Source of the DNA: a virus
Strand: one strand, 5' to 3'
Length of the DNA stretch: 41,380 nt
Virus record (IMG/VR): IMGVR_UViG_3300031974_002706
Span: 1-41,380 of that record
In this document: piece by piece, positions 22,837 to 41,380 of the stretch
How the letters are laid out: the number at the start of each line of letters is the position of its first letter
Position numbering within the stretch: position 1 is the stretch's first letter
Made by a program: the position numbers and the translations under genes
Notes under the pieces: model-generated
What the model saw: the letters and a program-made list of their open reading frames with translations, nothing else
What the model was told of the DNA's origin: nothing
Databases searched by the model: none

Positions 22837-23060
22837 TGCTACACCCAATTGAAGACAATTTAGAAAAATACACTACTCCACAAGTTGAAGATAAGTTACA
22901 AGAACTATCCAAAAAGTTCTATATGACACGAAATCCAGAAGTCAAAAACCAAATGGCAACATTAATTGAAATGTATAGAATTGAATTAAGAAGCCGTTAT
23001 GCCAAAGAAATGGCAAAGAACCAAGATAAAGATCTTGACAATTTAATCAACATAAGTTAA
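22836..23060 (+). CDS. small conserved phage-type protein, function unknown
   Basis: This 74-residue, mostly helical, charged protein is read from an ATG overlapping the previous stop (TAATG). It has no cysteines, no membrane segment and no recognisable catalytic motif. The helix-rich pattern (VEDKLQELSKKFYMTRNPEV) suggests a small protein-binding or chaperone-type role, but this is a guess. The promoter of the next gene lies within its last codons. Confidence 0.6.
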   Translation: MLHPIEDNLEKYTTPQVEDKLQELSKKFYMTRNPEVKNQMATLIEMYRIELRSRYAKEMAKNQDKDLDNLINIS

Positions 23061-23063
23061 AAT
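23035..23063 (+). promoter_or_regulatory. sigma70-type promoter with nested inverted repeat
   Basis: TTGACA (23035-23040), 17 bases, TAAAAT (23058-23063), then six bases to ATG 23070. The -10 box lies in the loop of a perfect seven-base inverted repeat, CATAAGT (23051-23057) and ACTTATG (23066-23072), whose right arm includes the start codon. No ribosome-binding site is present. Confidence 0.7.
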
Positions 23064-23069
23064 ACACTT

Positions 23070-24030: not shown

Positions 24031-24435
24031 ATGGCAATTAATCTAAATGCTATCAAAGGTACAGTTAGACCTTTGCACGACAGGTTAATGGTTTCCGATA
24101 TGGAGTTCGGAGAAGTTACAACAAAGGGAGGAATTATTCTTCCAAGTGATGATGGCCAACAACACGGTATCAAACCTCGTTGGGCAAAGATTGTGTCCAT
24201 TGGACATGAGAATACAGATGATTACGAAGTTGGAGATTGGATTCTAATTGAACACGGACGTTGGTCAAGAGGATTTACAGTTGAAGATGAAAATGGAGAA
24301 CAAAAAGTTCTCCGAACAGTAGACGCTTCGGGTGTGTTAGGCGTAGCAGACGAACCGCCAAGCGATCTTGCATACTATGGTGACGCTATTGATTTAAGTG
24401 GTGATAGTCACCGTCCAGAAGATTTTGTAAACTAA
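24031..24435 (+). CDS. GroES/gp31-like co-chaperonin
   Basis: This 134-residue protein resembles Cpn10 co-chaperonins. It has VRPLHDRLMVSDMEFGEVTT, then GGIILPSDDGQQHGIKPRWA and a VGDWILIEHGRWSRGF strand. GGIILP in the mobile-loop region fits the hydrophobic tripeptide that docks into GroEL. T4 replaces host GroES with gp31 to fold its large capsid protein, and this gene may do the same. It extends beyond a standard 97-residue GroES with an acidic C-terminal tail. It is co-transcribed with the gene upstream, with no gap. Confidence 0.78.
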   Translation: MAINLNAIKGTVRPLHDRLMVSDMEFGEVTTKGGIILPSDDGQQHGIKPRWAKIVSIGHENTDDYEVGDWILIEHGRWSRGFTVEDENGEQKVLRTVDASGVLGVADEPPSDLAYYGDAIDLSGDSHRPEDFVN

Positions 24436-24856: not shown

Positions 24857-24861
24857 AATAC

Positions 24862-24889
24862 TTGACTTTATCAAAAATTAGTGTATAAT
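24862..24889 (+). promoter_or_regulatory. sigma70-type promoter with nested inverted repeat
   Basis: TTGACT (24862-24867), 16 bases, TATAAT (24884-24889), then seven bases to ATG 24897. The -10 box lies between the arms TAGTGT (24879-24884) and ACACTA (24892-24897). No ribosome-binding site separates it from the gene. Confidence 0.7.
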
Positions 24890-24896
24890 AAACACT

Positions 24897-25310
24897 ATGA
24901 CAGTCGGTATAACATTCAGTACATTTGATCTATTTCATACAGGTCACGTTGCTATGCTCAAAGAAGCATCTGATCAGTGCAACCATTTAATTGTAGGACT
25001 ACAAACAGACCCTACTATAGATAGACCAGATAAGAACAAACCTATTCAATCTGTTTTTGAACGTTATGTTCAATTAGCAGGTTGTAAGTATATTAACGAA
25101 ATAATTCCATATTCAACTGAAAAAGATTTGGAAGATATATTACTAACATATACTATCCACAAACGCTTTATTGGCGAAGAATACAAATCAAAAGACTTTA
25201 CAGGTAAGCAGATTTGTGTTGACAAAGGCATAGAAATATATTATAATAAAAGGCAACACTCATTTAGTAGTACTAATTTGAGACAACGAATAGTAGAGGC
25301 AGGTAAATGA
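24897..25310 (+). CDS. cytidylyltransferase-like nucleotidyltransferase
   Basis: This 137-residue protein matches the short HxGH nucleotidyltransferases such as glycerol-3-phosphate cytidylyltransferase. It has GITFSTFDLFHTGH with H14 and H17, RYVQL near residue 60, and a C-terminal SSTNLRQRI matching the ISSTxxR motif. It should join a nucleotide (CTP or ATP) to a phosphorylated substrate; which one is not visible. It starts at or near the predicted first mRNA base and overlaps the clamp-loader gene by four bases (ATGA), so both share the early-type promoter. Confidence 0.85.
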   Translation: MTVGITFSTFDLFHTGHVAMLKEASDQCNHLIVGLQTDPTIDRPDKNKPIQSVFERYVQLAGCKYINEIIPYSTEKDLEDILLTYTIHKRFIGEEYKSKDFTGKQICVDKGIEIYYNKRQHSFSSTNLRQRIVEAGK

Positions 25311-26232: not shown

Positions 26233-26595
26233 ATGACATATCTTGTAAACGAAAACTGTATTAAATGCAAACATATGGACTGTGTTGAAGTTTGTCCAGT
26301 AGACTGTTTTTACGAAGGTGAAAATATGCTTGTAATCAATCCTAATGAATGTATTGACTGTGGTGTATGTGAACCAGAATGTCCTGTAGATGCTATTATT
26401 CCAGATAATGTAGAAGGGGCTGACAAGTGGTTGTATATCAATGAAGAATATTCAGCAAAATGGCCAAATATAACGCAAAAGTGCGATGAAGATGTTCCTT
26501 CCGATGCAGAAGATTATGCACACGAACCTAACAAGTTTGAAAGATTCTTTTCTGAAAAACCAGGCGGGAGCAAAAATGAAACCTCAAAAACTTAG
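26233..26595 (+). CDS. fdxA: FdxA-type ferredoxin (7Fe)
   Basis: This 120-residue protein matches bacterial FdxA ferredoxins. C9, C17 and C50 are placed to hold a 3Fe-4S cluster, and C21, C40, C43 and C46 a 4Fe-4S cluster; C12 and C25 are extra, as in the family. Motifs are [20 protein letters not shown] and [17 protein letters not shown]. It should carry single electrons at low potential. The partner is unknown; possible users are phage or host reductases or oxygenases. The last 20 bases overlap the parvulin gene. Confidence 0.92.
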
Positions 26596-26911
26596 AGCAA
26601 GTCATATTCTAATTAGCCATCAAGGCGCAACAGCACAAACAAGTAATCGTCCAGAACCTGCGGCTGAAGAAGAAGCAGGATTTATTATTCAAGATATTAT
26701 GGAGGGACTTCTTACATTTGAACAAGCCGCAAAAGAACATAGTGCTTGTAGAATAAGTGCAAAGAATGGTGGAGACTTGGGTTGGTTTGATTATCCAGGT
26801 GATATGGAGTATGAAATTGCAAAGCCTATTAGTCAAATTAACAAAGATGAAATGTTAACATTTCCAATTAAAACAGAATACGGATATCATATTTTATTAA
26901 GGACAGGGTAA
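26576..26911 (+). CDS. parvulin-type peptidyl-prolyl isomerase
   Basis: This 111-residue protein is a single parvulin domain. It has RASHILISH near the N-terminus, a loop rich in Pro/Glu, [27 protein letters not shown] and the closing [16 protein letters not shown]. It should speed cis-trans isomerisation of proline bonds during folding of phage or host proteins. I chose ATG 26576, preceded by GGGAG (26566-26570), over an upstream in-frame ATG at 26486 inside the ferredoxin gene. Its stop overlaps the next start (TAATG). Confidence 0.88.
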
Positions 26912-28575: not shown

Positions 28576-29336
28576 TTAATTTTATAAAAAACTTATTCAA
28601 AAAACAAGAACCAGTAATTACCTTTGCTTGTCAAAGTTGGGGTGTACGTAAATATGCACCAATTGAACCTGCTGGCAAATTCTTTCCAGATAAGTTTAAA
28701 GAAATGTCACCATACTATAAAAAAGAACAACATAATATTGACAGTCACAAAACTGTAAGAGCCTGCCCTGGTATTACAGATTACATGAGTATGGGTTATG
28801 TTATTCCTGCTTGGTGCGACATTACTATAGAACCTACTCCAGATGGCAAACATATTATTACAAGATACAGTGACGAAATATATAACGATGCTTACCACCC
28901 TCAAGAACAGTTAGGCAAATTTATGGAACAAAAGTTTAGTGTTCGTGGTGCAGTAAAATTAGATAATCCTTGGTTTACATGGAACAAAAAGGGTTGGAGT
29001 ACATTATATCTACCTATGTACTATCATGAAGGAAAGAACTGGGAAGCAGTTCCTGGTGTAATGGATCACGATTTAGGTGCTCCACAAAGTCCTATCAATA
29101 TTATGTTAAAAGAAATTAAGCCTACAACAATTAAGATGGGCGAACCTTTAGTTCAAGTTATTCCTTTCAAACGTGAAAAACAAATAGCAAGAACTATGGA
29201 ACTGAACGAAACTGCAATGAAACGTCAGTGGGCAATATCCAGCCTACACAAAATGACTTATGCAGGCTGGATTAAATGGGTAAAGACTAAAAAATTATAT
29301 GTAGTTGACGCCCAGGATACTAATTTACCCGGTTAA
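28572..29336 (+). CDS. conserved phage-type protein, function unknown
   Basis: This 254-residue protein begins with a short amphipathic stretch (MINFIKNLFKK). It then has CQSWGVRKYAPIEPAGKFFP, a VRACPGITDYMSMGYVIPAW segment and a beta-rich core with many aromatic residues. The layout recalls an uncharacterised phage/bacterial family (possibly DUF6065), which I cannot confirm. It overlaps the deaminase gene by four bases and ends tail-to-tail with phoH, sharing TTAA for both stops. Confidence 0.7.
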   Translation: MINFIKNLFKKQEPVITFACQSWGVRKYAPIEPAGKFFPDKFKEMSPYYKKEQHNIDSHKTVRACPGITDYMSMGYVIPAWCDITIEPTPDGKHIITRYSDEIYNDAYHPQEQLGKFMEQKFSVRGAVKLDNPWFTWNKKGWSTLYLPMYYHEGKNWEAVPGVMDHDLGAPQSPINIMLKEIKPTTIKMGEPLVQVIPFKREKQIARTMELNETAMKRQWAISSLHKMTYAGWIKWVKTKKLYVVDAQDTNLPG

Positions 29337-30061
29337 ACAACATCTCCATAAATTTCTAATACTTCTTTGACTGCATCATGTCTTTCAATATCTCCTTTAT
29401 GAAATTCTACGACATCGATTTTTTCTGCTGACCCTTTTTGATCTAAATGCCTACAAAAGTCAATAAGTCCGTTATCTCTAAGTCTATCTGCTTGAGCCAA
29501 GTCGCCTGTAACAGCCATCTTAGATCCTTCACCTAATCTTGTTAATAACATCTTCATTTGATTTTGCGTTGCATTTTGCATTTCATCAGCAATGATAAAC
29601 GAACTTTTAAACGTTCGTCCACGCATATATGCAAGTGGTGCAATCTCTACTACACCTTCTGCTATCATGCCTTCGATTTCATTTGCTGAAAAATACTCCT
29701 GAAGCACATCAAAAATAGGTCTTGTCCATGGTGCCATCTTTTGTTCAAGTGTACCTGGTAAAAACCCTAAATCTTCGTCTGCACTTACAGCAGGTCTTGT
29801 GACAATTATTTTGTCGATTTTCCCCTCTTTAAACTGCTTAATCGCAACTTGCACAGCCAACAGGGTTTTACCTGTTCCTGCCGGCCCAATGCCAAAGACT
29901 ATGTCTTTCTTTGAGTCTAACAGTTGAAGCATATAAGTTTCTTGATTAATGTTTCGGGGTAGTATTTTGACTTCTTTTTTCTTCTGAGGAAGAAAGTTGT
30001 TGAATTCTACAATATTGCTATTGTAGTTTTTGCTCTTCCGAGCACTTCTTTTTGCACCCAT
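29333..30061 (-). CDS. phoH: PhoH-like P-loop ATPase
   Basis: This 242-residue protein is a PhoH-type NTPase with Walker A GPAGTGKT (59-66), TRPAVSADEDLGFLPG, a Walker B-like IIADEMQN, and TGDLAQ as sensor motif. PhoH is widespread in marine phages; a role in RNA metabolism or in the phosphate-starved host has been proposed, but its function is unsettled. The basic N-terminus (MGAKRSARKSK) could bind RNA. The ATG follows AAAGGAGG. It is transcribed against its neighbours, and its upstream region holds a micro-ORF and an inverted repeat. Confidence 0.93.
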   Translation of the reverse strand: MGAKRSARKSKNYNSNIVEFNNFLPQKKKEVKILPRNINQETYMLQLLDSKKDIVFGIGPAGTGKTLLAVQVAIKQFKEGKIDKIIVTRPAVSADEDLGFLPGTLEQKMAPWTRPIFDVLQEYFSANEIEGMIAEGVVEIAPLAYMRGRTFKSSFIIADEMQNATQNQMKMLLTRLGEGSKMAVTGDLAQADRLRDNGLIDFCRHLDQKGSAEKIDVVEFHKGDIERHDAVKEVLEIYGDVV

Positions 30062-30079
30062 GCAGTCCTCCTTTATGGA

Positions 30080-30115
30080 TTATAACAAGTAGTCTGCATC
30101 GTATAGTTTTGACAC
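30080..30115 (-). CDS. possible 11-residue micro-ORF upstream of phoH
   Basis: GTG at 30115 opens MSKLYDADYLL with a TAA stop. A perfect AGGAGG lies eight bases upstream (30129-30124), and a weak late-like box ACTAAATA at 30144-30137. The phoH ribosome-binding site follows six bases after the stop. It may be a leader peptide coupled to phoH translation or a stand-alone micropeptide. The strong Shine-Dalgarno site is the main evidence. Confidence 0.35.
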   Translation of the reverse strand: MSKLYDADYLL

Positions 30116-30120
30116 TATAC
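30101..30120. repeat. perfect inverted repeat upstream of phoH
   Basis: GTATAGT and ACTATAC, separated by six bases (TTTGAC), form a seven-base-pair inverted repeat in the 159-base divergent gap. It overlaps the start of the micro-ORF, so in the phoH leader RNA it could form a hairpin next to the GTG. It could instead be a DNA operator. There is no T-run, so it is not a terminator. Confidence 0.5.
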
Positions 30121-30188
30121 GTGCCTCCTACACAAATATTTAGTGAAGATCGCTCGTGATAAAACTACACTGTTATAAATGCTAACCG

Positions 30189-30196
30189 GATAAATA
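30189..30196 (+). promoter_or_regulatory. late promoter box
   Basis: GATAAATA lies 24 bases before ATG 30221. The leader contains no strong Shine-Dalgarno sequence (ATTGGAT only). It should start the 30221-33072 late block. Confidence 0.6.
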
Positions 30197-30220
30197 AGTG
30201 TATAAGATTGGATATTTAAT

Positions 30221-30751
30221 ATGAAAGATGTGTTAGAAGTAATCAAGAACGTACAGGGCATATACGAAAGCGATACTGCATTTACGGTTCTAAAAGACTT
30301 TGAAAGAGTGCTTGACGAACTGGATTTATATGTATATGATAACTGGGAAGATGGCGAAATTGTATCAGGTCCTAATATTAAAAGACACTGGGTAATTTGT
30401 TCATTTATGTGGCCACGAGATAAAATGCCTGACCCAATGGGTGGTAAAAGATTACTCGATTATGACTGTAAAGTAACATATAAAAAAGATTATATTTTAA
30501 TTCCTCGTAAAATTAAAACACCAGACGATATACGTCCAGGTACTAAAAAAGGAAAGTTAGATCGTAAAGAAATTTGGGTCGTAGAAATAATGATGCCTAA
30601 AAAATTAATTGTAGATATCTATAGCGGATATAATGAGATGTTAGATTTAACTACTGAACCTGGTGCTGACCAGAACCCAACTCCAGAAGCACAACCGGCA
30701 GATGCATCAGCAATGGAAGCACCTGCGGCGGCACCTGAAGGAGCAATGTAA
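30221..30751 (+). CDS. conserved phage-type protein, function unknown
   Basis: This 176-residue protein has a mixed alpha/beta N-terminal part of about 140 residues (with HWVICSFMWPRDKMPDPMGG and KEIWVVEIMMPKKLIVDIY). A flexible Pro/Ala/Glu/Gln-rich tail follows and ends AAAPEGAM. No catalytic motif is recognised. It has its own late box and overlaps the next gene by one base, so the two probably act together. They lie next to the lysis cassette. Confidence 0.65.
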   Translation: MKDVLEVIKNVQGIYESDTAFTVLKDFERVLDELDLYVYDNWEDGEIVSGPNIKRHWVICSFMWPRDKMPDPMGGKRLLDYDCKVTYKKDYILIPRKIKTPDDIRPGTKKGKLDRKEIWVVEIMMPKKLIVDIYSGYNEMLDLTTEPGADQNPTPEAQPADASAMEAPAAAPEGAM

Positions 30752-31461
30752 TGGGACTAAGAAAAGACGATCTAAAAGATTTAGTAGATAGTATTTTTGA
30801 GATTGATTCCTTTAAATCTAAAATGGGTAGTGACAGCGACATAGTCGTATTAAGTTTTTCAACAAAAAACGAAGCAAGTGCAAAAGATCTTGAAAACTTT
30901 CTTGAGAAAGGTTATCCTTTTGTGCTTGATGCAGATGCAACATCAGGTGAACAAACTGACGGTATGTACAAAGTATTTGTAGAACTTGAAAGAAGTAAAG
31001 ATTCACCTACACACATTTATGAAATGATAGACGGTATCCAAAAAATATCAGGCTTAGATAGTATGAAGTTTAGATACTATAAGAGTTTTAGAAGTCATGA
31101 TGCTACTGATGCAAATTTAGCAGAAATGGTACCAACAGATAAAGATGCTTATGATATTCGAGTAAATGAAAATAACATGGATAACTATAAAAACTTTTTT
31201 AATAAGAGTTATGCTGAAGAAGTAGATATGCTAAATGAACACACTCTAAGAGTAAAAAACACATATATGGATCCAATTGTTTTCAAAGTTGTTGATTTTG
31301 CTCGAACAGATGAGGTAAATATCAATGAAGCATTAGATGTTAATGGTTTTGCTGAAGTTATATATTTAAGTAAGTATTTAGGTGATTACAATATTACAAA
31401 ATATGGTAAAAAACTTGTGCTTGAAAATAATGGCTACAGTCTAATTTTGAAAAGAGGTTAA
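30751..31461 (+). CDS. conserved phage-type protein, function unknown
   Basis: This 236-residue acidic protein shows two halves. The first (residues 1-110) is a ferredoxin-like alpha/beta pattern with FVLDADATSGEQTDGMYKVF, and the second (after about 130) contains LRVKNTYMDPIVFKVVDF. There are no membrane segments and no cysteines. It is read from TAATG overlap with the preceding gene and stops two bases before the muramidase gene. A virion or late regulatory role is possible, but no function is recognised. Confidence 0.65.
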   Translation: MGLRKDDLKDLVDSIFEIDSFKSKMGSDSDIVVLSFSTKNEASAKDLENFLEKGYPFVLDADATSGEQTDGMYKVFVELERSKDSPTHIYEMIDGIQKISGLDSMKFRYYKSFRSHDATDANLAEMVPTDKDAYDIRVNENNMDNYKNFFNKSYAEEVDMLNEHTLRVKNTYMDPIVFKVVDFARTDEVNINEALDVNGFAEVIYLSKYLGDYNITKYGKKLVLENNGYSLILKRG

Positions 31462-31463
31462 AA

Positions 31464-31988
31464 ATGGCGACAGATAATTTTAAAGAATGTTTAAAGATCA
31501 TCCTTGAACACGAGGGTGGATACGTTGATCACCCAAGCGATCCAGGCGGTGCAACAAATATGGGTATCACAAAACAAACATATGAAGACTGGATGAACAA
31601 AGTAGTAACAAAAGAAGTAATTCAAAATCTTACTGAAACAGATGTTACTCCAATTTATAAAAAGAATTACTGGAATGGCATCTTAGCAGATGACTTACCA
31701 AAGGGATTAGACCTTTGTGTCTTTGATATGTGTGTTAATGGTGGCAGACATAGAGCAACAAAAATGTTACAACAAATGGTTGGATCTAAAATAGACGGAT
31801 GGATTGGACCTAACACGATTGCTAAAACTCAAAGTTATGTTGAACAAGTTGGAATCGATACAGCAATTAACGAATACCAAAAACTTCGTCAAGACTACTA
31901 TGAGTCACTTGCAACATTTAAAACTTTTGGAAACGGATGGACAAACAGAGTAAACAGCACAACAGACTCAGCAAAAGCAATGGTGTAA
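31464..31988 (+). CDS. endolysin, glycoside hydrolase 108-type muramidase
   Basis: This 174-residue protein matches GH108 N-acetylmuramidases, with HEGGYVDHPSDPGGATNMGI near the start; E17 is the likely catalytic acid. A PG-binding-3-type segment with DGWIGPNTI lies near residue 110. It should cut the glycan backbone of host peptidoglycan at lysis. No signal sequence is seen, so export through a holin is expected; a holin candidate lies at 33396. The next small gene begins inside its 3' end. Confidence 0.9.
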   Translation: MATDNFKECLKIILEHEGGYVDHPSDPGGATNMGITKQTYEDWMNKVVTKEVIQNLTETDVTPIYKKNYWNGILADDLPKGLDLCVFDMCVNGGRHRATKMLQQMVGSKIDGWIGPNTIAKTQSYVEQVGIDTAINEYQKLRQDYYESLATFKTFGNGWTNRVNSTTDSAKAMV

Positions 31989-32095
31989 GTTGTAAAAACT
32001 GCGGACACGAATATCACGAAGGACCTCTTTACAAAGAATATTTAGATGGCGATGGTAAACCGATTACCATCGAAGTCTGCAAACAAGGAAGATAA
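31937..32095 (+). CDS. small zinc-binding protein overlapping endolysin
   Basis: This 52-residue frame starts at ATG 31937 inside the endolysin gene and runs 107 bases past its stop. It ends directly before the spanin ATG at 32096. The second half has CKNCGHEYHEG and a later EVC, a Cys/His set able to hold one zinc ion, followed by KEYLDGDGKPITIE. The exact fit between two genes supports it. The true start could lie further downstream. Function is unknown. Confidence 0.6.
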   Translation: MDKQSKQHNRLSKSNGVSCKNCGHEYHEGPLYKEYLDGDGKPITIEVCKQGR

Positions 32096-32584
32096 ATGTT
32101 TAGTTCAATTAAAATAGCAATGGTGGTAATTATGTTGGCAGGAGCCGGAGGTGGTTTCATGTATGTGAAAACACTAAAAAGTGATCTTGCTGTGAGTGAA
32201 GCAAATAATGCTAAACTATTAGATAGTGTATCAGAACAACAAGCAGTAATAGAACAACAGAAAAAAGATTTTACTGCTATTCTTGAGTTAAACAAAGAAC
32301 TTGAAGCAACTAATCAAACTTTACGCAAAGAGTTTGCGGCACTTGATCAACGTTTCAATAAAATTAACGGCAAAGGCGAAGTTAGGGATATTGGAAAACT
32401 TGCTGATGAAAAAGCAAAATTAGTTGAACGTGTTATTAACAATGCGAGTAACAAAGCAATGCGTTGTGCAGAAATTGCTATGGGTGCTCCATTAACAGAA
32501 AAGGAAAAGAACGCTACTAAGAAATCAGAAATCAATTCTGAATGTCCAAGTATAGCGAACCCGAATTATGTCCCATACGATTAA
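32096..32584 (+). CDS. inner-membrane spanin candidate (Rz-like)
   Basis: This 162-residue protein has an N-terminal signal-anchor (about residues 5-25, IAMVVIMLAGAGGGFMYV). A long charged coiled coil follows (about 35-85, with VIEQQKKDF, ELNKELEATNQTL), then a C-terminal part with two cysteines. This is the layout of i-spanins, which bridge inner and outer membranes and fuse them after the endolysin acts. Its position after the muramidase and before two lipoprotein genes supports the call. Confidence 0.72.
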   Translation: MFSSIKIAMVVIMLAGAGGGFMYVKTLKSDLAVSEANNAKLLDSVSEQQAVIEQQKKDFTAILELNKELEATNQTLRKEFAALDQRFNKINGKGEVRDIGKLADEKAKLVERVINNASNKAMRCAEIAMGAPLTEKEKNATKKSEINSECPSIANPNYVPYD

Positions 32585-32948
32585 AAATATTTTCTTAGTA
32601 TCACTGTTAGCAATAGTTCTATCAGGTTGTTCAACTGTGAGCAAACTTGATATTTTTAAAACAGAAGTAGAAAGAGCACCATTAAACTTACCACAGCCTG
32701 AAGCGGCTAAAATGGAAAATATTAAATGGGTAATCATTAACAGTGAAAATGCAGAAGAAGTATTTGCTAAACTAAAAGAACAAGGTAAAGATCCTGTGTT
32801 GTTTGGTTTAAGTGATGATGATTATCAACTACTATCAAAGAATTTCGCCCAAATACGTGCTTATATGATTAAGCAACAAAAGGTGATTGATGCTTATAAA
32901 GAATACTACGAAGGCGATACTGATACTACTAACACTGACTCTAAGTAG
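32568..32948 (+). CDS. lipoprotein, outer-membrane spanin candidate or lysis accessory
   Basis: This 126-residue protein starts with a signal peptide and lipobox (LAIVLSGCST, C21 as lipid attachment site). The mature part contains NIKWVIINSENAEEVFAKL and a coiled-coil-prone C-terminus ending in an acidic Thr/Asp tail. It overlaps the spanin gene by 17 bases and the next lipoprotein gene by 59. Either this or the following gene is the o-spanin; this one is longer than most Rz1 proteins. Confidence 0.65.
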   Translation: MSHTIKNIFLVSLLAIVLSGCSTVSKLDIFKTEVERAPLNLPQPEAAKMENIKWVIINSENAEEVFAKLKEQGKDPVLFGLSDDDYQLLSKNFAQIRAYMIKQQKVIDAYKEYYEGDTDTTNTDSK

Positions 32949-33072
32949 TTGTATATCTGCAACTAATAATTGTTCGGTTAAACCTTCAGTAGAAGTTAAA
33001 AATCTCCCCAAAGATCTTAAAATAGAACGCGACAATGTAGTTACCAAAGGCGAAGTGGCCTGTTCATTTTAA
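32890..33072 (+). CDS. small lipoprotein, o-spanin (Rz1-like) candidate
   Basis: This 60-residue protein starts at ATG 32890 (an in-frame TTG precedes it). It has a signal peptide with lipobox TLSSCIS near residue 21, then a short mature chain with VKPSVEVKNLPKDLKIERD. Size, lipobox and partial embedding in the upstream gene resemble Rz1 outer-membrane spanin subunits. It closes the endolysin-spanin transcript before a new late promoter at 33082. Confidence 0.65.
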   Translation: MLIKNTTKAILILLTLTLSSCISATNNCSVKPSVEVKNLPKDLKIERDNVVTKGEVACSF

Positions 33073-33081
33073 CAAAACATC

Positions 33082-33089
33082 GATAAATA
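33082..33089 (+). promoter_or_regulatory. late promoter box
   Basis: GATAAATA followed by C lies 25 bases before ATG 33115, with AGAGAGGG as ribosome-binding site between. Confidence 0.65.
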
Positions 33090-33114
33090 CACATATAAAG
33101 AGAGGGAAGTTTAT

Positions 33115-33396
33115 ATGTGGGAAATGATCGAAAGAATGGCAACTGACAGACTGTGGATTTACACAGCCTTAGCAGGTTCTTTATTTGGTGCCGCATTTTT
33201 GTTTTGGTTCAAAGATACAAAAATGGCAATGTGGGCAGTAAGAAAGTTTGATGCCTTTCTTGAATATCTTGCAATACGTTGGGGCTGGACTTGGTTCCAA
33301 AATGATCCAAATGCTTGGCGTACAAAGTATCCCCATGTAACCCAGAAAATAGACGAGTTAGAATCTCGTATCAAAAAATTAGAGGGTAAAAAATAA
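33115..33396 (+). CDS. small membrane protein, possible lysis regulator
   Basis: This 93-residue protein has one clear membrane span (about residues 14-32, WIYTALAGSLFGAAFLFWF). A Trp-rich amphipathic region (IRWGWTWFQNDPNAW) and a C-terminal coiled-coil-like helix (IDELESRIKKLEGKK) follow. It overlaps the holin candidate by one base and shares its late promoter, so a pinholin, antiholin or envelope role is possible. No specific family is recognised. Confidence 0.62.
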   Translation: MWEMIERMATDRLWIYTALAGSLFGAAFLFWFKDTKMAMWAVRKFDAFLEYLAIRWGWTWFQNDPNAWRTKYPHVTQKIDELESRIKKLEGKK

Positions 33397-33719
33397 TGGC
33401 CGATACAGAAGTAAAAGTTCAAAGTACAGAACACAAAAAGAAAGTTAATCTTGAGTTAGAAGTAGATGCTTCAGCAAAAGACTTAGGTATTAATCCATAT
33501 GCAAAATTAATACACTTGGCAAGAGCAATTGACAGTTGGAGAATTTTTCCAAGAATCTTTATTTCAACTTATATTTTCTTACTCTACAAAGTAGTAATTT
33601 GGTATATGGAACTTCCAAATCCTACAATGGAACAATCAGGTTTAGTTAGTATCGTAGTTGGTGCTGGCGCGGCATGGTTTGGTTTATATACAGGTTCAAG
33701 AGCAAAGTCAGACAAATAA
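33396..33719 (+). CDS. holin candidate
   Basis: This 107-residue protein has a charged N-terminal 35 residues, then two likely membrane spans (about 53-70, FISTYIFLLYKVVIWYM, and 82-98, GLVSIVVGAGAAWFGLY). It ends in a short basic tail, TGSRAKSDK. Size, topology and position after the endolysin-spanin genes fit a holin that opens the inner membrane for the muramidase. Family membership (for example GTA-type holins) is not certain. Confidence 0.65.
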   Translation: MADTEVKVQSTEHKKKVNLELEVDASAKDLGINPYAKLIHLARAIDSWRIFPRIFISTYIFLLYKVVIWYMELPNPTMEQSGLVSIVVGAGAAWFGLYTGSRAKSDK

Positions 33720-33722
33720 TCA

Positions 33723-33751
33723 TTGACAAACGTCTAATATAAGTATATAAT
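33723..33751 (+). promoter_or_regulatory. sigma70-type promoter with nested inverted repeat
   Basis: TTGACA (33723-33728), 17 bases, TATAAT (33746-33751), then six bases to ATG 33758, so the predicted first mRNA base is the A of ATG. The -10 lies in the inverted repeat AGTAT-ATA-ATACT (33742-33754). It drives the DnaJ-deformylase-ClpA cassette. Confidence 0.78.
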
Positions 33752-33757
33752 ACTGCT

Positions 33758-34603
33758 ATGGATTATTACGAATTGTTAGGCGTTTCTCGTGGCGCTTCAG
33801 AAAAAGAAATTAAAACTGCGTTCCGCAAATTGGCGGCGAAGCATCATCCTGACAAAGGTGGTGATCATAAGAAGTTTACACAACTTAACGAAGCGTATCA
33901 AACACTAACAGATCCACAAAAAAAACAAATGTATGATCAGTATGGTACTGCTGATCCACAACAAGCAGGTTTTCAACAGCAAGGCTTTGGCGGTTTTGGT
34001 CCAGGTGGCTTTGAATTTAATGGTGACATGAATGATATATTCAGCACATTTTTTGGAAGAGGCTTTCAACAACAAAGACGTCCACAACAAAATAGAGACA
34101 TTACTATTGCTTGTGATATTACAGTAGGTGAAGTATATACAGGCAAAGGTGTTATTGCTACTTTTAGAACAAACAGTGGTCAAGAACAAACTGTTAACAT
34201 TGACATACCAAAGGGTGCTAAACACGGAGATACTATACGCTACGGAGGTTTAGGAGATGACAGTATTCCAGGTATACCAAGAGGAAACTTAAATGTAAAA
34301 GTAAGAATACTAAGACATCCAAACTTTGATGTAGATGGAATTAATTTGCATACAGTAACTAAAATTGATATTTTTGAAATGATACTTGGCACTACCACAA
34401 ATCTTACTTTACCGTCAGGTAAGACTATAAGTATTAATGTACCAAGAGGCACACAACCAGGCACAGTTCTAAGCATACACGGTCAAGGCTTACCAGACTA
34501 CAACTCAGGCGCTTCCGGAAATGTTTACCTAAAAGTAAACGGCGTTATTCCAAAAAATTTAACCGAAGAACAATACGATTTGATAAGAAAGATTAAGGAA
34601 TGA
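33758..34603 (+). CDS. DnaJ-family co-chaperone (type II, CbpA-like)
   Basis: This 281-residue protein has a J domain at residues 1-65 with HPD (H30-P31-D32). A Gly/Phe/Gln-rich linker follows (about 70-108, with [12 protein letters not shown]), then two C-terminal beta domains ([18 protein letters not shown] and later [12 protein letters not shown]). The Cys-rich zinc finger of DnaJ itself is missing, as in CbpA. It should stimulate host DnaK and deliver clients to it. It starts directly at an early-type promoter and overlaps the deformylase gene by four bases. Confidence 0.92.
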
Positions 34604-35127
34604 AGTTAGTATATCATCCGCATCCATCTTTATTAAAGCAAGTGCAAGAATTTGACTTTAATAAGTTAGACGCAAAAGACATTGAAAAACAAATGATTGA
34701 AATCATGAACAAAGAACATGGTGTAGGTCTTAGTGCCAATCAGGTTGACTTAGATGCACAAATCTTTGTAATGGAGCCAAAAGATTTAGAAGGACACAAA
34801 GACGGAGAATCATTTGCTGTTATCAATCCAAGAATAGAAGCAGTATCAGATCAGACAGTGTTAGGAGAAGAAGGGTGTTTAAGTTTTCCAGGATTATTTT
34901 TTAAGGTAAAACGTGCCCAGGCTTTGGTAGCAAAGTTTCTTGACAGTAGCGGAAAAGAATGTACAATAGAGTTTAAAGGATGGAATGCAAGAATATTCCA
35001 ACACGAATTTGATCACTTGTACGGAATCAATTATATTGACCGTGTAAGTAAAATGAAAATAGACATGGCTAAGAAAAAACAACAAAAGTATTTTAAAAGA
35101 ATAAAAGGAATGATAAAGTATGGTTGA
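34600..35127 (+). CDS. def: peptide deformylase
   Basis: This 175-residue protein has all three deformylase motifs: GVGLSANQ (41-48), EEGCLS with metal ligand C93, and QHEFDHL with H135, E136 and H139. It removes the formyl group from N-terminal methionine of new proteins. Length is normal and a basic tail ([16 protein letters not shown]) is present. Marine phages often carry deformylases, thought to help host or phage protein renewal. It overlaps dnaJ by four bases and the clpA-like gene by eight. Confidence 0.93.
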
Positions 35128-37372
35128 ACCCAGTGACGATTTGCAGGCAGTATTTGATAAAGCAATGAATGATGCCAAGAAGTTAAATCACGAGTATGTG
35201 ACTCTTGAGCATTTATTATTTGCAATGTTATGCAGTGAGAAGTTTTCTAAAATTGTAGAAGGCTCTGGTGCTGACCCTGAATTTATTAAAAAGAATATTG
35301 AAAATTATTTAAAGAACGAATGTCAAGAAATTACATTGCCTGCAGAGAATTCTAAAAAGTTCAAACCTAAGAAAACATCAACAGTAGAACGTGTGCTAAA
35401 CAGAGCATTTACACAGGTATTGTTTAGTGGCAGACATCATATTGAAATTTCAGACGTGTTCTTAAGTATTATGAATGAGAAAAAATCTTGGTCATATTAC
35501 CATATTCATAAATCAGGATTAACTAAAGAACAGTTTGCCGACTATCTTAATAACGAATTAGAAGCAGTTTATGAAGATGAAGAAGGAAGACTTTTATCTC
35601 AAAAAGCATTACGTGAATATTCAACCGATCTTAACAAAGAAGTTGAACAAAAGAAAATTGATCCAGTAATTGGTCGTGCAGAAGAATTAGAAAGTATTGC
35701 ATTGTCATTAGGTAGACGTTCTAAAAATAATGTACTACTTGTAGGAGACCCAGGTGTGGGTAAAACTGCTATTGCAGAAGGACTTGCATTTAATATTGTT
35801 AATAAATCTGTGCCTCCTTTCTTACAAGAATATAAAGTTTACAATTTAGATATCAGTGCAATGTTGGCTGGTTCGAAATACAGAGGTGACTTTGAAGAAC
35901 GCTTTAAACTTGTAATGAGTGCTATTAAAAAACAAGGTAAAACTATTGTATTCATTGATGAAGCACACATGATTAATGGTGCTGGTGCAGGCGGTGGTTC
36001 TAACAGTGCAAACGATCTTGCTAATATGTTAAAACCTGCTCTTGGTAAAGGTGATATTAAAGTAGTTGCTTCAACAACTTGGGAAGAGTATCGTAAGTAT
36101 TTTGAAAAAGATAGAGCATTAATGCGTAGATTCCAACGTGTAAGTGTTAGTGAGCCAAGCAAAGAAGTTACAAAAGATATTTTACAAGGTATTAAAAAAT
36201 ATTACGAAGATTATCACAAAGTTCTTATTACAGATGATGCTATTGAATCTTCAATTAAGTTAAGTGTAAAGTATATGGCAGATAAAAAACTTCCAGATAA
36301 AGCAATTGATTTAATTGATTTGGCTTGTTCAAGATTTAATCTAAAAGATGTTGAAGGTGATAAAATTGTAGGCAAAGAAGAAGTAGAATTTGAACTTGCT
36401 AAAGCAGTTAAGTTGCCGCCGGAACAAGTATCGCAAAAAGAATCAAGTAATCTTGCACACCTTGAAGATAATCTTAAGAAGCAAGTATATGGACAAGATA
36501 AAGCAATTGATGAAATTGTAGATAAGATCCTTGTTGCACAAGCAGGCTTAAAACAAGATAATAAACCAATTGGTTCATTTGTGTTTATGGGGCCAACTGG
36601 TGTTGGTAAAACAGAAACAGCCAAGCAACTTGCAAATCAATTAAGTGTAGAACTTGTACGTTTTGATATGAGTGAATACCAAGAAAAACATTCTGTTGCT
36701 AAACTTATTGGATCACCTCCGGGTTATGTTGGGTTTGAAGATAATGCAGGATTATTGATTACAAAATTACAAGAACATCCTAACTGTGTATTACTACTCG
36801 ATGAGATTGAAAAAGCACACCCAGATGTTTCGCAGATCCTACTACAAATTATGGATAATGGAAAGATTACTGGAAGCAACGGTAAGGAAGCCGATGCGAA
36901 AAATGCAGTTTTGATTCTAACTACAAACTTAGGTGCAGAACAAGCAGAGAAAAACGCTATCGGCTTCAACGAAGATATGGAAATGGACTATGAAGACACT
37001 GAACTTAAGAAGTTCTTTGCTCCAGAGTTCCGTAATAGACTTGACGGTGTAATTGCGTTTGGTAAACTTGAGAAGAATACAATGATTAAAATTGTTGGTA
37101 AGTTCCTTGTTGAATTACGTGATATGCTTAAAGAAAAGAATGTTACTGTTGATATTACAGATGATACTATTGATTATCTTGTTGATGTTGGATTTGACAA
37201 AAAGATGGGTGCAAGACCACTACAACGTACAATAGATAAAGAAATTAAACGTGATCTAAGTAAGATTCTACTGTTTGGAGAACTTAAAAACGGTGGACAT
37301 TTACATATTGATATAAAAGATAAACAAATACAATTAGTGCCTACTAAAAAGACAGAAACTGTAACTGCATAA
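35120..37372 (+). CDS. clpA: ClpA-type AAA+ unfoldase
   Basis: This 750-residue protein has the full ClpA layout: an N-domain (about 1-145), a first AAA+ module with GDPGVGKT (209-216), a second with GPTGVGKT (491-498) and FMGPTG, and LLLDEIEKAHPDV as Walker B. There is no ClpB-type middle coiled coil. At 614-616 it carries IGF, which lines up with the IGL/IGF tripeptide that docks ClpA/ClpX onto ClpP, so it could recruit host ClpP. Length matches E. coli ClpA (758 residues). It ends the three-gene cassette begun at 33758. Confidence 0.93.
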   Translation: MVEPSDDLQAVFDKAMNDAKKLNHEYVTLEHLLFAMLCSEKFSKIVEGSGADPEFIKKNIENYLKNECQEITLPAENSKKFKPKKTSTVERVLNRAFTQVLFSGRHHIEISDVFLSIMNEKKSWSYYHIHKSGLTKEQFADYLNNELEAVYEDEEGRLLSQKALREYSTDLNKEVEQKKIDPVIGRAEELESIALSLGRRSKNNVLLVGDPGVGKTAIAEGLAFNIVNKSVPPFLQEYKVYNLDISAMLAGSKYRGDFEERFKLVMSAIKKQGKTIVFIDEAHMINGAGAGGGSNSANDLANMLKPALGKGDIKVVASTTWEEYRKYFEKDRALMRRFQRVSVSEPSKEVTKDILQGIKKYYEDYHKVLITDDAIESSIKLSVKYMADKKLPDKAIDLIDLACSRFNLKDVEGDKIVGKEEVEFELAKAVKLPPEQVSQKESSNLAHLEDNLKKQVYGQDKAIDEIVDKILVAQAGLKQDNKPIGSFVFMGPTGVGKTETAKQLANQLSVELVRFDMSEYQEKHSVAKLIGSPPGYVGFEDNAGLLITKLQEHPNCVLLLDEIEKAHPDVSQILLQIMDNGKITGSNGKEADAKNAVLILTTNLGAEQAEKNAIGFNEDMEMDYEDTELKKFFAPEFRNRLDGVIAFGKLEKNTMIKIVGKFLVELRDMLKEKNVTVDITDDTIDYLVDVGFDKKMGARPLQRTIDKEIKRDLSKILLFGELKNGGHLHIDIKDKQIQLVPTKKTETVTA

Positions 37373-37377
37373 GATCG

Positions 37378-37385
37378 GATAAATA
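37378..37385 (+). promoter_or_regulatory. late promoter box, leaderless position
   Basis: GATAAATA ends five bases before ATG 37391. There is no ribosome-binding site between, and the predicted start site is the A of ATG. Confidence 0.62.
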
Positions 37386-37390
37386 GTTGT

Positions 37391-37732
37391 ATGCCAAGTA
37401 ACAGTGAAATAATTTTATCAGCAAATACTCATCCAGGCGATAGTTCAGTTCAAACTATTACCGGGGACAAGTACAAAGGTGACGGATATTACAGCAGAGC
37501 AGACGGTGTTCATACTGTACAATATAATTATTCCGGATTAACAGGAACAATTAGTATAGAAGCATCACTTGCTACTACACCTACTGCTGATGATTGGTTT
37601 GAAGTGCATTCATATACAGCCGCACAAGAAACTGATAGCAAATATGCTAACTTCACTGGTAACTTTGTATGGGTTAGAGCAAAAGTAGTTTACACAGATG
37701 GCACTATTAACAGCATCTTGTTAAACCATTAG
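37391..37732 (+). CDS. small beta-rich protein, probably virion-associated
   Basis: This 113-residue protein is rich in Thr, Ser, Tyr and Gly, with VHTVQYNYSGLTGTISIEAS and NFVWVRAKVVYTDGTI. The pattern reads as a compact beta-sandwich. It has its own late box, so it is likely made with virion proteins and may be a capsid decoration or tail accessory. No family is firmly recognised. The next gene follows behind AGGAG. Confidence 0.6.
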   Translation: MPSNSEIILSANTHPGDSSVQTITGDKYKGDGYYSRADGVHTVQYNYSGLTGTISIEASLATTPTADDWFEVHSYTAAQETDSKYANFTGNFVWVRAKVVYTDGTINSILLNH

Positions 37733-37740
37733 GAGTTAGT

Positions 37741-38010
37741 ATGAGTAATTTTATTAATATTGTATGGCAAAGCAAACAAGAAGATGTTGATGCTATTGTT
37801 GCTGAACAAGTGTTAAACTGCACAGACGAAGCACTAACAGAATCAGAAGCACTATATGAAGTATATGAATCCGATAAGGGCGAAACAGTGCTTACTATTG
37901 ATACCCACAAGCAGTTAGATGAAGCAGAATCCAACGCTGTTGCTGAAAGAATAGCAAATAGACTGTTTGATTTAGGGTTTTCTAAGTTCGATATCGAAAT
38001 CTCTGTATAG
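37741..38010 (+). CDS. small acidic protein, function unknown
   Basis: This 89-residue acidic protein starts at ATG 37741 behind AGGAG. Its first half is Glu/Ala-rich and helical. The second, with KQLDEAESNAVAERIANRLF and FSKFDIEISV, looks like an alpha/beta unit with no catalytic residues visible. It shares the late transcript of the gene upstream. Confidence 0.58.
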   Translation: MSNFINIVWQSKQEDVDAIVAEQVLNCTDEALTESEALYEVYESDKGETVLTIDTHKQLDEAESNAVAERIANRLFDLGFSKFDIEISV

Positions 38011-38019
38011 ACAAACTGT

Positions 38020-38027
38020 GATAAATA
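38020..38027 (+). promoter_or_regulatory. late promoter box overlapping possible sigma70 promoter
   Basis: GATAAATA followed by C lies 33 bases before ATG 38061. The same stretch also fits a sigma70 promoter: TAGACA (38008-38013), 17 bases and TATAAT (38031-38036). The gene may therefore be read in both phases of infection. Confidence 0.5.
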
Positions 38028-38028
38028 C

Positions 38029-38048
38029 TTTATAATACGTATTATAAA
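38029..38048. repeat. perfect 20-base palindrome
   Basis: TTTATAATACGTATTATAAA reads the same on both strands and sits between the promoter and the gene at 38061. It covers the possible -10 box and first transcribed bases, so it is well placed to be an operator or an RNA hairpin. No T-run follows, which argues against a terminator. Confidence 0.6.
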
Positions 38049-38060
38049 GGGTGCGATCAT

Positions 38061-38729
38061 ATGACTAAAAAATTTAGAGATTATCTCGCTGAAACCATCA
38101 ACGAAGGTGCAGGTGATTTACAAGACGATTACGGATACACTTGGAACTGCAAAAAGTGTAACGCTGAAAATGAATTTACAATGACTCCGCAAGAAAAACA
38201 AGAATACATCGACGACTGGGAAGCAGACAATCAAGATTTAGTAGCAGATGGCGAAACAGGCGAAGGTGCATTAGATAATTTGTTGATGGACCAAGGTGAA
38301 GAAAGTGGAATGCATTATGGTGACAAGTGTGTGAAATGTGGCACTGTAGCAGAAGATCCATATAGTGAATCAAACGAATTAGCAAGAATCAAAGAACTTT
38401 CTAACATTGACGAAGAAACATATGACGGTGACGACTTTTATAATGCATACGGCGAACTATGGTTCAATGAAGATGATGTAATTGACGAAGCAGAATATCA
38501 AGGACGCAAAGTACAACTTGGCAAACCGATGCGTGGTGATGTTAAAAAGTTCAAAGTATATGTCCGTGATCCCAAAACTAAGAATGTTAAAAAAGTTAAC
38601 TTTGGTGATCCTAATATGAAAATTAAAAAATCAAATCCAGCACGTAGAAGAAGTTTCCGTGCAAGACACAACTGTGATAATCCAGGCCCAAGAACAAAAG
38701 CAAGATATTGGTCCTGCAGAAAGTGGTAG
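38061..38729 (+). CDS. phage-type protein with Cys-rich regions and conserved basic C-terminus
   Basis: This 222-residue protein has three parts. The N-terminus is short (MTKKFRDYLAE). The first half holds two zinc-type pairs (CKKC near 30 and CVKC near 93). The C-terminal part of about 75 residues is basic, with KKFKVYVRDPKTKNVKKVNF, FGDPNMKIK and RARHNCDNPGPRTKARYWSC. That last segment recurs in many T4-like marine phage proteins, some beside capsid or prohead genes, but its function is not known to me. An uncharacterised nucleic-acid or virion role fits the charge. Confidence 0.7.
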   Translation: MTKKFRDYLAETINEGAGDLQDDYGYTWNCKKCNAENEFTMTPQEKQEYIDDWEADNQDLVADGETGEGALDNLLMDQGEESGMHYGDKCVKCGTVAEDPYSESNELARIKELSNIDEETYDGDDFYNAYGELWFNEDDVIDEAEYQGRKVQLGKPMRGDVKKFKVYVRDPKTKNVKKVNFGDPNMKIKKSNPARRRSFRARHNCDNPGPRTKARYWSCRKW

Positions 38730-38735
38730 ACAGAT

Positions 38736-39065
38736 ATGAAATTTGATGATATAATGACAAATAATGATAACCCATCATATGATGTACCAAGTGATTTGCT
38801 TTGCCATATGAGAGACGATACTTCTTTCTATAGACAAATGTATTATCCTACTATGGCAAAATGTCAAGAATGTTATAATAAAGGTGACAAAAATAAATCA
38901 ATGGAATTTATTTTACCAATGATTAATAAAGGTGTAGGCCATTATGTAAAAAAATATGACATTCCGGGTAACCCAGATGATTTAATCACAATGGACGAAA
39001 GAAAAGCACTTGGTGAAAAAATTCTTGAAATGGAAGTAGAAGCATTTAAAGAAGGCGAGTACTAA
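38736..39065 (+). CDS. conserved phage-type protein, function unknown
   Basis: This 109-residue, mostly helical protein starts at ATG 38736 six bases after the previous stop and overlaps the next start by one base. Segments such as VPSDLLCHMRDDTSFYRQMY and MINKGVGHYVKKYDIPGNPD suggest a helical bundle. Cysteines at three places are not spaced for a zinc site. No function is recognised; its neighbours imply part of a conserved small-gene string in this phage group. Confidence 0.6.
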   Translation: MKFDDIMTNNDNPSYDVPSDLLCHMRDDTSFYRQMYYPTMAKCQECYNKGDKNKSMEFILPMINKGVGHYVKKYDIPGNPDDLITMDERKALGEKILEMEVEAFKEGEY

Positions 39066-39637
39066 TGCAGTTAAGAGAATTGTTTGTTGAACAGTCGGGC
39101 AAAGAAGTTAGTTTTGCTTTAGGAAGACTTAATCCGGCTACAACAGGACACGGCTTACTTGTTGAAGCACTTAAACAAGGTCCAGGTGACGCAATTCTTT
39201 TCTTGACAGACAGAGCCGCAAAACTTCCAACAGATCCTCTAAACCCAAATGAAAAATTAGATTGGGCAAGAAAAAGTTTTCCAGATGTTAAAATAGAACT
39301 TGCTAAAAATATTATGTTTGCCGCAAGTGATCTGTATGCCAGAGGTTATTCTAAAGTAACTTTCTTTGAAGGTGAAGATAAATTAGGAAAACTATTAGAA
39401 AAATACAACGGTCAAAAATCAGCACATGGATTTTTTGACTTTGAAGAAATTAAATTTGAAAGATTATCACGTAATCCAGATGCAGATGATGCAACAGGAA
39501 TGAGTGCAAGTAAAATGCGTCAAGCAGTTATTGATGGAAACTTTGAAGCATTCAGCAAAGGTGTAACTAAATCTGCACAACCTTATGCTAAAAAGATGTT
39601 CGATAACTTATCAACAATACTTGGTGGTGCGGCATAA
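39065..39637 (+). CDS. nucleotidyltransferase-like protein (HxGH superfamily)
   Basis: This 190-residue protein has FALGRLNPATTGH, matching the TxGH nucleotide-binding motif of cytidylyl/adenylyltransferases, and later MSASKMRQAVIDG, matching the ISST-x-x-R region. It may add AMP or CMP to a substrate, as NMN or pantetheine-phosphate adenylyltransferases do, but the first motif histidine is replaced by threonine, so activity is uncertain. It is distinct from the shorter nucleotidyltransferase at 24897. Confidence 0.72.
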   Translation: MQLRELFVEQSGKEVSFALGRLNPATTGHGLLVEALKQGPGDAILFLTDRAAKLPTDPLNPNEKLDWARKSFPDVKIELAKNIMFAASDLYARGYSKVTFFEGEDKLGKLLEKYNGQKSAHGFFDFEEIKFERLSRNPDADDATGMSASKMRQAVIDGNFEAFSKGVTKSAQPYAKKMFDNLSTILGGAA

Positions 39638-39855
39638 TGGATTTAGAAACTCTTAAACAATTAGCAGGTGTAGGCAAGTATAGTTTTAAAGGATTACAAG
39701 CCGTTGATGAGAATCTATCTATTACAGGCACTGAGAAAAGACGCATTGAAAGAGAAAAAGGAATCAAACCTGGTGATCCAGATTGGTTTAAATTATGGTT
39801 TAGTTTGCCACACATGACTGGCGGTATGCCTCAGTTCAGAGGACGTAAAAAATGA
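39637..39855 (+). CDS. small basic protein, function unknown
   Basis: This 72-residue protein is read from ATG 39637, overlapping the previous stop by one base, and overlaps the next gene by four (ATGA). It contains GTEKRRIEREKGIKPGDPDW and ends MPQFRGRKK. The basic tail could bind nucleic acid. No family is recognised. Confidence 0.58.
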   Translation: MDLETLKQLAGVGKYSFKGLQAVDENLSITGTEKRRIEREKGIKPGDPDWFKLWFSLPHMTGGMPQFRGRKK

Positions 39856-41380
39856 AGTTTATAGATTTTAAAGAAGCCGCAGGAGTAGGGCGAATTACAA
39901 AACAAAATCAAACTGCTGATGTAGGTCCTGGTGAAATTTCAAAACAAGCCGCAAAGTTTGGAAACAAGGTAGACAAAGACGGACGTCCACCTACACTATC
40001 TAAAAAAGTAAAAGGTTCTAAAACAAATGTGCTGTTTAATTTAGGCATGGCCGAAAGTGTTGCTGAACGTTCATTAACCAAAGACGAAGAAAAAGACAAA
40101 GAAAAATACGTCAAGGGTATGAAGAAAAATAAAAAAGATTTTAAGAAACGCTATGGCGATGATGCTGAAGCAGTAATGTATGCTACTGCAACAAAAATGG
40201 CAAAAGAATCTAAACTTGACGAACTTAAAGGTAAAGAACTATCAAGTGATTCAGAAATTTACGTAGATATGGATGGTGTACTTGTAGACTTTTTTGGCGA
40301 GTGGACTAAGATGATGGGTGTTAGTGATTGGAAACAAATTAAAAATGTTGATAAAGCACTGCAAAAGATTAGAGATACAGACGATTTTTGGTTAAAACTA
40401 AAACCAACTGCAAACGCAGATAAACTTTTAAGTATTATTAAAGATATTAAGGGCGAATACAACATCTTATCTGCTCCATTAGCAAATGATGATAGAGCAG
40501 AACCTCACAAACGCGAATGGGTTAAAAACAACTTAACAGCATTTCTGCCTAAGAAAGTTATTATTACCACAGACAAACAAGCATATGCTAAACAGCCAGA
40601 TGGTACACCTAACATATTAATTGACGACTTTGGTCAGAATGTTAGCAAATGGGAAGCATCAGGTGGTGTAGGTTTTAAACACAAGGATCATAAGTTTGAA
40701 AGAACTGCATCAAGTTTAAAAGATTACTTTAACAAACCAGCAGAAGAAGATACAAACGAGATTATGGGATTTACTATTGCCCGTAGTCCTAAACGTGCAA
40801 CAATTAAAAAGAAACCAGAAAAGTTTGAGCCAAGTGTACAAGATAAATTAAAGGCAAGAAGAGCCGCGGCGGCACGTGGTGATAAAGATGCGTACACACA
40901 TAAGTTTAATAAAAAAACAGATGAAGGTGATCTAATTCCTAATCCAAAAAACACTTCTTTAGTAAAATCAGATGCAGACTATGACTTTATAAAACTTGGC
41001 ACTAACATGGCTAATGTTAAAAGTGTTGACAAATCTGATATGAATCCAGACGATCCAGATATCATGGTACAGTTTTATGGCGGTGACAAAGAAAAAGCCT
41101 ATATGTTAAAACAACTAAAACGTCTTGGCTACAAGGTACAAGATGCTGATGGTTATAATGATGCACAGTATGATGAAATGTACAGTGATGATCCTAATGC
41201 ATACAGATTAATTATTGGATTAAAGCCTTTGGTGGAAAATACACAATCTCGTGCCAAGTGGGAAAAGTCTATGATTAAGAAGTATGGCAAAGATGGTTGG
41301 TATGATATTGCAGATGCTGTTAGAGACTATTACGAATCCAATGCCATAATGGGCAACACTATAAGCGATATAATCAAAAT
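39852..41380 (+). CDS. multidomain protein with HAD/5'-deoxynucleotidase-like domain (3' end outside window)
   Basis: The frame is open from ATG 39852 to the window edge, about 509 codons. Residues 1-125 form a basic region with KYVKGMKKNKKDFKKRYGDD and AVMYATATKMAK, a motif common in marine phage proteins. Around 135-300 lies a HAD domain: YVDMDGVLVDFFGEW with D139 and D141 as likely nucleophile and acid/base, ILSAPLANDDRAEPHKREWV, and ILIDDFGQN. This resembles 5'(3')-deoxyribonucleotidases, which remove phosphate from dNMPs. After about 340 come Lys/Asp-rich parts with MVQFYGGDKEKAYMLKQLKR. The fusion of small modules is typical of these genomes. Confidence 0.78.
   Translation, partial: MKFIDFKEAAGVGRITKQNQTADVGPGEISKQAAKFGNKVDKDGRPPTLSKKVKGSKTNVLFNLGMAESVAERSLTKDEEKDKEKYVKGMKKNKKDFKKRYGDDAEAVMYATATKMAKESKLDELKGKELSSDSEIYVDMDGVLVDFFGEWTKMMGVSDWKQIKNVDKALQKIRDTDDFWLKLKPTANADKLLSIIKDIKGEYNILSAPLANDDRAEPHKREWVKNNLTAFLPKKVIITTDKQAYAKQPDGTPNILIDDFGQNVSKWEASGGVGFKHKDHKFERTASSLKDYFNKPAEEDTNEIMGFTIARSPKRATIKKKPEKFEPSVQDKLKARRAAAARGDKDAYTHKFNKKTDEGDLIPNPKNTSLVKSDADYDFIKLGTNMANVKSVDKSDMNPDDPDIMVQFYGGDKEKAYMLKQLKRLGYKVQDADGYNDAQYDEMYSDDPNAYRLIIGLKPLVENTQSRAKWEKSMIKKYGKDGWYDIADAVRDYYESNAIMGNTISDIIK

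Follow-up and report, generated by a model that had tools for sequence, protein, structure and literature searches.

The stretch of DNA analysed here, referred to as the window, covers 41,380 nt (positions 1 to 41,380 of the IMG/VR record IMGVR_UViG_3300031974_002706) and comes from a marine jumbo-type bacteriophage. Three intact genes on its + strand code for a DnaJ protein, a peptide deformylase and a ClpA unfoldase. The features of the locus are the following:

33115-33396, + strand: small ORF belonging to the late region upstream; a GATAAATA box lies 5′ of it at about 33082-33089
33396-33719, + strand: PHROG 10198 ORF, directly 5′ of dnaJ
33723-33751, + strand: sigma70-type promoter, TTGACA-N17-TATAAT (12/12 match), with 6 nt between its end and the dnaJ ATG
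33738-33745, + strand: T4-late-like box TATAAGTA, inside the sigma70 promoter, 12 nt before the dnaJ ATG
33758-34603, + strand: dnaJ, 281 aa (Pfam DnaJ, 5e-23; DnaJ_C, 3e-31)
34600-35127, + strand: def, peptide deformylase, 175 aa (Pfam Pep_deformylase, 4e-45; PHROG 2890)
35120-37372, + strand: clpA, 750 aa, two-ring AAA+ unfoldase with N domain (PHROG 4871, E 4e-244)
36959-36967, + strand: IGF ClpP-docking tripeptide, ClpA residues 614-616, aligned with E. coli IGL in the D2 loop

The operon dnaJ-def-clpA at 33758-37372 is arranged as the original prediction had it, with consecutive ORFs overlapping by 4 nt (ATGA, dnaJ/def) and 8 nt (def/clpA), overlaps from which coupled translation would be expected. 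To establish how far this order extends, we considered the 75 IMG/VR relatives in which at least 700 nt are present before clpA. dnaJ lies immediately 5′ of clpA in all 75, an adjacency that thereby appears obligate; def is found between the two genes in 56, and the other 19 show a gap of 14-138 nt and no def. The C-terminal coding part of the PHROG 10198 ORF (WFGLYTG...) is also recognisable 5′ of dnaJ in many relatives. When mapped on the ClpA tree, the presence of def requires at least seven gains or losses. With or without def, the dnaJ-clpA pair is found again in phages whose ClpA is 41-48% identical, namely Atu_ph07, PA5oct and members of seven metagenomic lineages; the order in phage Phosso is exactly dnaJ-def-clpA. 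Because the adjacency is invariable and recurs in distant phages while def varies, the core of the cassette, as judged from gene order, is dnaJ-clpA, and def is an optional insert. The earlier view of a three-gene unit thus holds for the order, but not for def as a core part, since def comes and goes while dnaJ stays.

The window ClpA aligns end to end with E. coli ClpA (residues 7-734, E 9e-189) and contains the Pfam domains AAA_2 (2e-56), AAA, AAA_lid_9, ClpB_D2-small and Clp_N. Walker A and B motifs are kept, as are the pore loops KYRG and GYVG. Aligned to E. coli ClpA, the 750-aa protein has no insertion corresponding to a ClpB-type M domain; with this coiled coil absent, it was not assigned to the ClpB/Hsp104 disaggregases. 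The predicted IGF at the ClpP-docking loop of a full-length ClpA was confirmed, residues 614-616 falling on the IGL position of E. coli ClpA. An AlphaFold2 model of the monomer was of moderate quality (mean pLDDT 73, pTM 0.47), with residues 607-626 forming a low-confidence, mostly unstructured loop, and the best Foldseek matches of the model in the PDB were ClpC and ClpA, including the ClpC-ClpP and ClpAP-ClpS complexes. In the modelled structure, both observations agree with a flexible, exposed loop and are no proof of docking. Among IMG/VR relatives with 70-98% ClpA identity, the tripeptide reads IGF in almost every sequence and VGF in the remainder, and unlike this near-invariant tripeptide, the columns flanking it in the marine relatives carry 2-3 bits of variation. 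Altered tripeptides (LGM, IGM, MNM, IGG, IGV, IGY and VGF) are seen in the Rak2-like jumbo phages of enteric bacteria and in a small number of other phages. Since the operon is conserved and its docking loop intact, ClpA probably feeds a ClpP, with which docking is predicted. Phage ClpA with an intact docking loop was initially thought to be unusual. For phage ClpA this proved incorrect: with a cut-off of E<1e-100, PHROG 4871 is matched by 96 GenBank phage records, and it is common in jumbo myophages. We excluded Acinetobacter MD-2021a and some Listeria, Salmonella and Escherichia 'phage' records, whose Clp/DnaJ genes look cellular and probably stem from host contamination.

The DnaJ protein of the window belongs to class B (CbpA-like), with a J domain containing HPD, a G/F-rich region and a DnaJ_C domain, and without the zinc motif. 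The same holds across the family, in which HPD is kept in 72/72 J-proteins and the zinc motif is found in none (0/72). No HSP70 was found in the 16 phages searched, which rules out a phage DnaK as partner there, so the J-protein must use host DnaK; recruitment of host DnaK and stimulation of this Hsp70 are predicted from the domain architecture. The deformylase contains the motifs G-x-G-x-[AS]-A-x-Q, EGCLS and HExxH, all kept in 58/58 family members. A GroES-like co-chaperonin is encoded at 24031-24435 and a parvulin-type PPIase at 26486-26911, which brings the genes for protein folding or turnover in the window to at least four in addition to the deformylase. A Subtilase-family (S8) peptidase is encoded between tail-type proteins at 17252-18931. 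Elsewhere, a UvdE endonuclease gene overlaps a Cu/Zn superoxide dismutase gene (4556-6144), the UvdE region being near clpP in relatives. An ORF at 23070-23627 (GVGRGSSVSSYVLYLIGI) resembles by eye a fragment of DNA polymerase III alpha, possibly from a split polymerase.

We then asked whose peptidase such a ClpA would serve. ClpP (PF00574) was found in all ten ClpA-positive cultured phages tested, and ClpS (PF02617) matched in the same ten, nine above the cut-off and one below. Among nine large phages without ClpA, ClpS was found in none and ClpP-type matches in three, while all five ClpP-positive contigs longer than 200 kb encode ClpA. ClpP is present in four of the 14 marine-group contigs, exactly those whose sequence extends for some 60 kb or more on the side of dnaJ, and ClpS in three of these four (G003, G005 and G010); in the marine relatives, clpP lies roughly 40-65 kb from clpA, on the dnaJ side. 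Neither protein is encoded in the 41-kb window or in its 156-kb sister contig (L005/G001). On the dnaJ side the window extends for just 35 kb and, like the sister contig, stops short of where clpP would be expected, so that the absence of ClpP from it is uninformative. The sister contig extends 43 kb on this side and ends in a block that is about 6 kb from clpP in L168, and a nucleotide synteny search for the clpP of the window's clade returned only a block near clpP and no same-clade contig with clpP. We infer from these gene contents that clpP is likely to be encoded in the window's own genome, and that the virus probably comes with a protein-degrading machine of its own instead of using that of its host. 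Beside the phage clpP of G010, an ORF on the minus strand (L085, about 830-1490) resembles by eye the Bax-inhibitor-1 membrane family.

All 24 phages with both ClpA and ClpP have an intact Ser-His-Asp catalytic triad in ClpP. The 17 with an IGF ClpA invariably have Phe or Tyr at the ClpP pocket position equivalent to E. coli Phe82, together with dnaJ in the clpA cassette; the seven with an altered tripeptide have Met, Asn, Cys or Ser at position 82 and no J-gene. Decay of the tripeptide in phages without ClpP was rejected as an explanation, since all ten ClpA-positive phages tested have ClpP and decay tracks the changed pocket. On a ClpA tree built with the loop columns removed, the association of loop, pocket and J-gene corresponds to one or two independent changes, of which one is on well-supported branches. 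The co-variation was therefore rejected as a set of independent data, for which the uncorrected Fisher p of 2.9e-6 is unreliable, and in these alignments it is suggestive. The residues that form the N-degron pocket (N34, D35, T38, M40 and H66) are retained in ClpS of the marine relatives, whereas in that of the Rak2-like phages they are not. In the Rak2-like phages L120-L124 the ClpS-like protein is long (about 180 aa) and its pocket His has been lost; it is possibly a re-purposed adaptor. Positions are given relative to E. coli ClpA, ClpP and ClpS; the ClpA and ClpP reference sequences agree with PDB alignments, and the ClpS positions are provisional.

Expression of the cassette was considered from the signals upstream of dnaJ. 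The 12/12 sigma70 site at 33723-33751 is the sole one at 29000-41380 (12.4 kb, both strands), and from its position dnaJ is predicted to have a leaderless start. This promoter (11-12/12, 17-nt spacer, 6 nt from the ATG) is kept only in the window's clade (L003-L014 and L024, about 14 sequences), and a strong sigma70 promoter is absent upstream of dnaJ in the rest of the family. The motif [AG]TAA[AG]TA occurs at most 30 nt before dnaJ in 63/69 sequences, compared to a mean of 3.4 in shuffled sequences, with a spacing to the ATG of 5 nt in 49 and 12 nt in 13. Boxes of the GATAAATA type precede about ten genes in the window, many of them tail or virion genes, a pattern that would fit promoters of the T4 late type. 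Two spacing classes are apparent among these boxes, as they lie 5 nt before the ATG at starts 18946 and 37391 and 18-33 nt upstream elsewhere. Sigma70-type promoters are also seen at 23034-23070 and 24861-24897, which like that at 33722-33758 have a −10 ending 6-7 nt before an ATG, with a 6-nt peak clade-wide; all three would be predicted to yield leaderless early transcripts. Virion, lysozyme and spanin genes lie upstream of the cassette, and read-through into it from the small ORF at 33115-33396, in the upstream late region, is possible. The simplest reading of these signals would be early and late expression in the window's clade and late-like expression elsewhere. The single early-type promoter originally assigned to the cassette is thus present, but it is a feature of one clade, the late-like box precedes dnaJ in most of the family, and genes for lysis and virion proteins lie next to the cassette.

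Our preferred interpretation, to which we give a probability of roughly 0.6, is that this locus supplies the unfoldase for a ClpAP(S) protease encoded by the phage itself, and alongside it a J co-chaperone acting on host DnaK. The IGF loop of ClpA would dock on the phage's own ClpP, and phage ClpS would hand N-degron substrates to ClpA. The J-protein, together with host DnaK, would keep abundant or misfolding proteins soluble, and proteins failing on DnaK would be unfolded by ClpA and degraded. The deformylase would help the burst of newly made phage proteins to mature faster, and might also change the N-termini that ClpS and ClpA see. The benefit may lie in removing host or regulatory proteins or in quality control of virion proteins; a takeover of host protein turnover, as proposed from the initial inspection, is possible. 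Several points count against the ClpAP(S) reading. Neither ClpP nor ClpS is encoded in the window or its sister contig, the association of loop, pocket and J-gene goes back to one or two changes, and the AlphaFold2 model is of moderate quality. A hand-off from DnaK to ClpA is to our knowledge no established route, as ClpA has no M domain, the part of ClpB with which DnaK works. The virion and lysis genes around the cassette would also fit an assembly chaperone. A broader form, which we put forward tentatively and consider doubtful as a whole, is that a large group of jumbo myophages possesses a complete, private N-degron ClpA/ClpP/ClpS protease with a co-evolving loop and pocket, in which a J-protein obligately coupled to the unfoldase would make host DnaK a triage step ahead of degradation directed by the phage; this would amount to a quality-control and degradation pathway for proteins that belongs to the phage.

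In an alternative reading, akin to the assembly role suggested for phage ClpA/ClpX by Iyer et al. 2021 (PMC7824862), ClpA and DnaJ would act late in infection, mainly to fold or remodel virion proteins, and proteolysis would be minor. The structural, spanin and lysozyme genes next to the cassette speak for it, as do the late-like box found before dnaJ in 63/69 sequences and the position of clpA in Rak2-like phages, where it adjoins a tail-sheath stabiliser and structural genes. We nevertheless judge it unlikely, since a tripeptide kept amid varying flanks is expected only if ClpP binding matters, and the ClpA-positive phages also have a triad-intact ClpP. We find it about equally improbable, if not slightly more so, that ClpA works on host ClpP and, with DnaJ/DnaK and the deformylase, diverts host protein turnover in the early phase of infection, which is the partnership first proposed for this locus. 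An IGF fits the cellular consensus, the window is without ClpP, the clade has its 12/12 sigma70 promoter, and an early expressed phage J-domain protein acting on host DnaK has a precedent in Rki of phage RB43 (PMC3486835); however, the relatives encode their own ClpP and ClpS, the docking loop co-varies with the pocket of the phage ClpP, and the early promoter is not kept family-wide. That three auxiliary genes, each acting alone, were gathered by chance would account for the coming and going of def and for stand-alone phage deformylases elsewhere, but is very hard to reconcile with a dnaJ-clpA adjacency found in 75/75 relatives and again in distant phages.

If the ClpAP(S) reading is correct, jumbo phages could do without the host degradation machinery and could set which proteins die during infection. 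Phage ClpS, proposed to serve host ClpAP in the survey that reported ClpA, ClpP, ClpS and DnaJ in jumbo phages (Iyer et al. 2021, PMC7824862), would be reassigned to the phage's own machine, and the diverged pairs of ClpA loops and ClpP pockets would form a natural series for the study of unfoldase-peptidase recognition. Clp, DnaJ and deformylase genes are already known in jumbo phages: ClpA is a core family of moraphages (PMC12619734), and Sinorhizobium phage AP-J-162 has six Clp proteins as well as a deformylase (gp154) and a DnaJ (gp155) adjacent in numbering (PMC11242549). The cassette and the loop/pocket pairing appear undescribed, as we found in the open-access literature no description of an obligate dnaJ-clpA pair, a joint ClpA/ClpP/ClpS rule or a loop/pocket pairing.

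The window ClpA shares with E. coli ClpAP/ClpS its full-length architecture, pore loops and docking tripeptide site, and the likeness extends in relatives to a triad-intact ClpP and a pocket-intact ClpS; in contrast to E. coli, the phage clpA shares its operon with dnaJ (and def), the loci of clpP and clpS are distant, and the tripeptide is IGF rather than IGL. The J-protein resembles RB43 Rki in being a phage J-domain protein predicted to act on host DnaK (PMC3486835), but Rki is no generic co-chaperone, whereas the window protein shows all parts of a class B J-protein and its gene is coupled to clpA. The Rak2-like jumbo phages (GAP32, 121Q and Munch) possess the same ClpA family with ClpP and ClpS-like proteins, but have no J-gene, a degenerate tripeptide (LGM, IGM or MNM) and an altered ClpP pocket and ClpS. 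In the Pseudomonas phage PA5oct group (40% identity), dnaJ-clpA lies near PhoH and structural genes and is accompanied by the phages' own ClpP and ClpS and by an IGF, although the deformylase is absent. Agrobacterium phage Atu_ph07 (gp292 ClpA, gp293 DnaJ, gp676 ClpP, gp708 ClpS) likewise has dnaJ directly before clpA and an IGF, but no def between them and a ClpA only 41% identical; its description (PMC6102473) lists ClpA, ClpP, ClpS and DnaJ together and mentions neither an adjacency rule nor a pairing of loop and pocket. The Sinorhizobium phage Phosso (PV764938), a soil jumbo phage with 43% ClpA identity and non-overlapping genes, has the same dnaJ-def-clpA order as the window, together with ClpP and ClpS.
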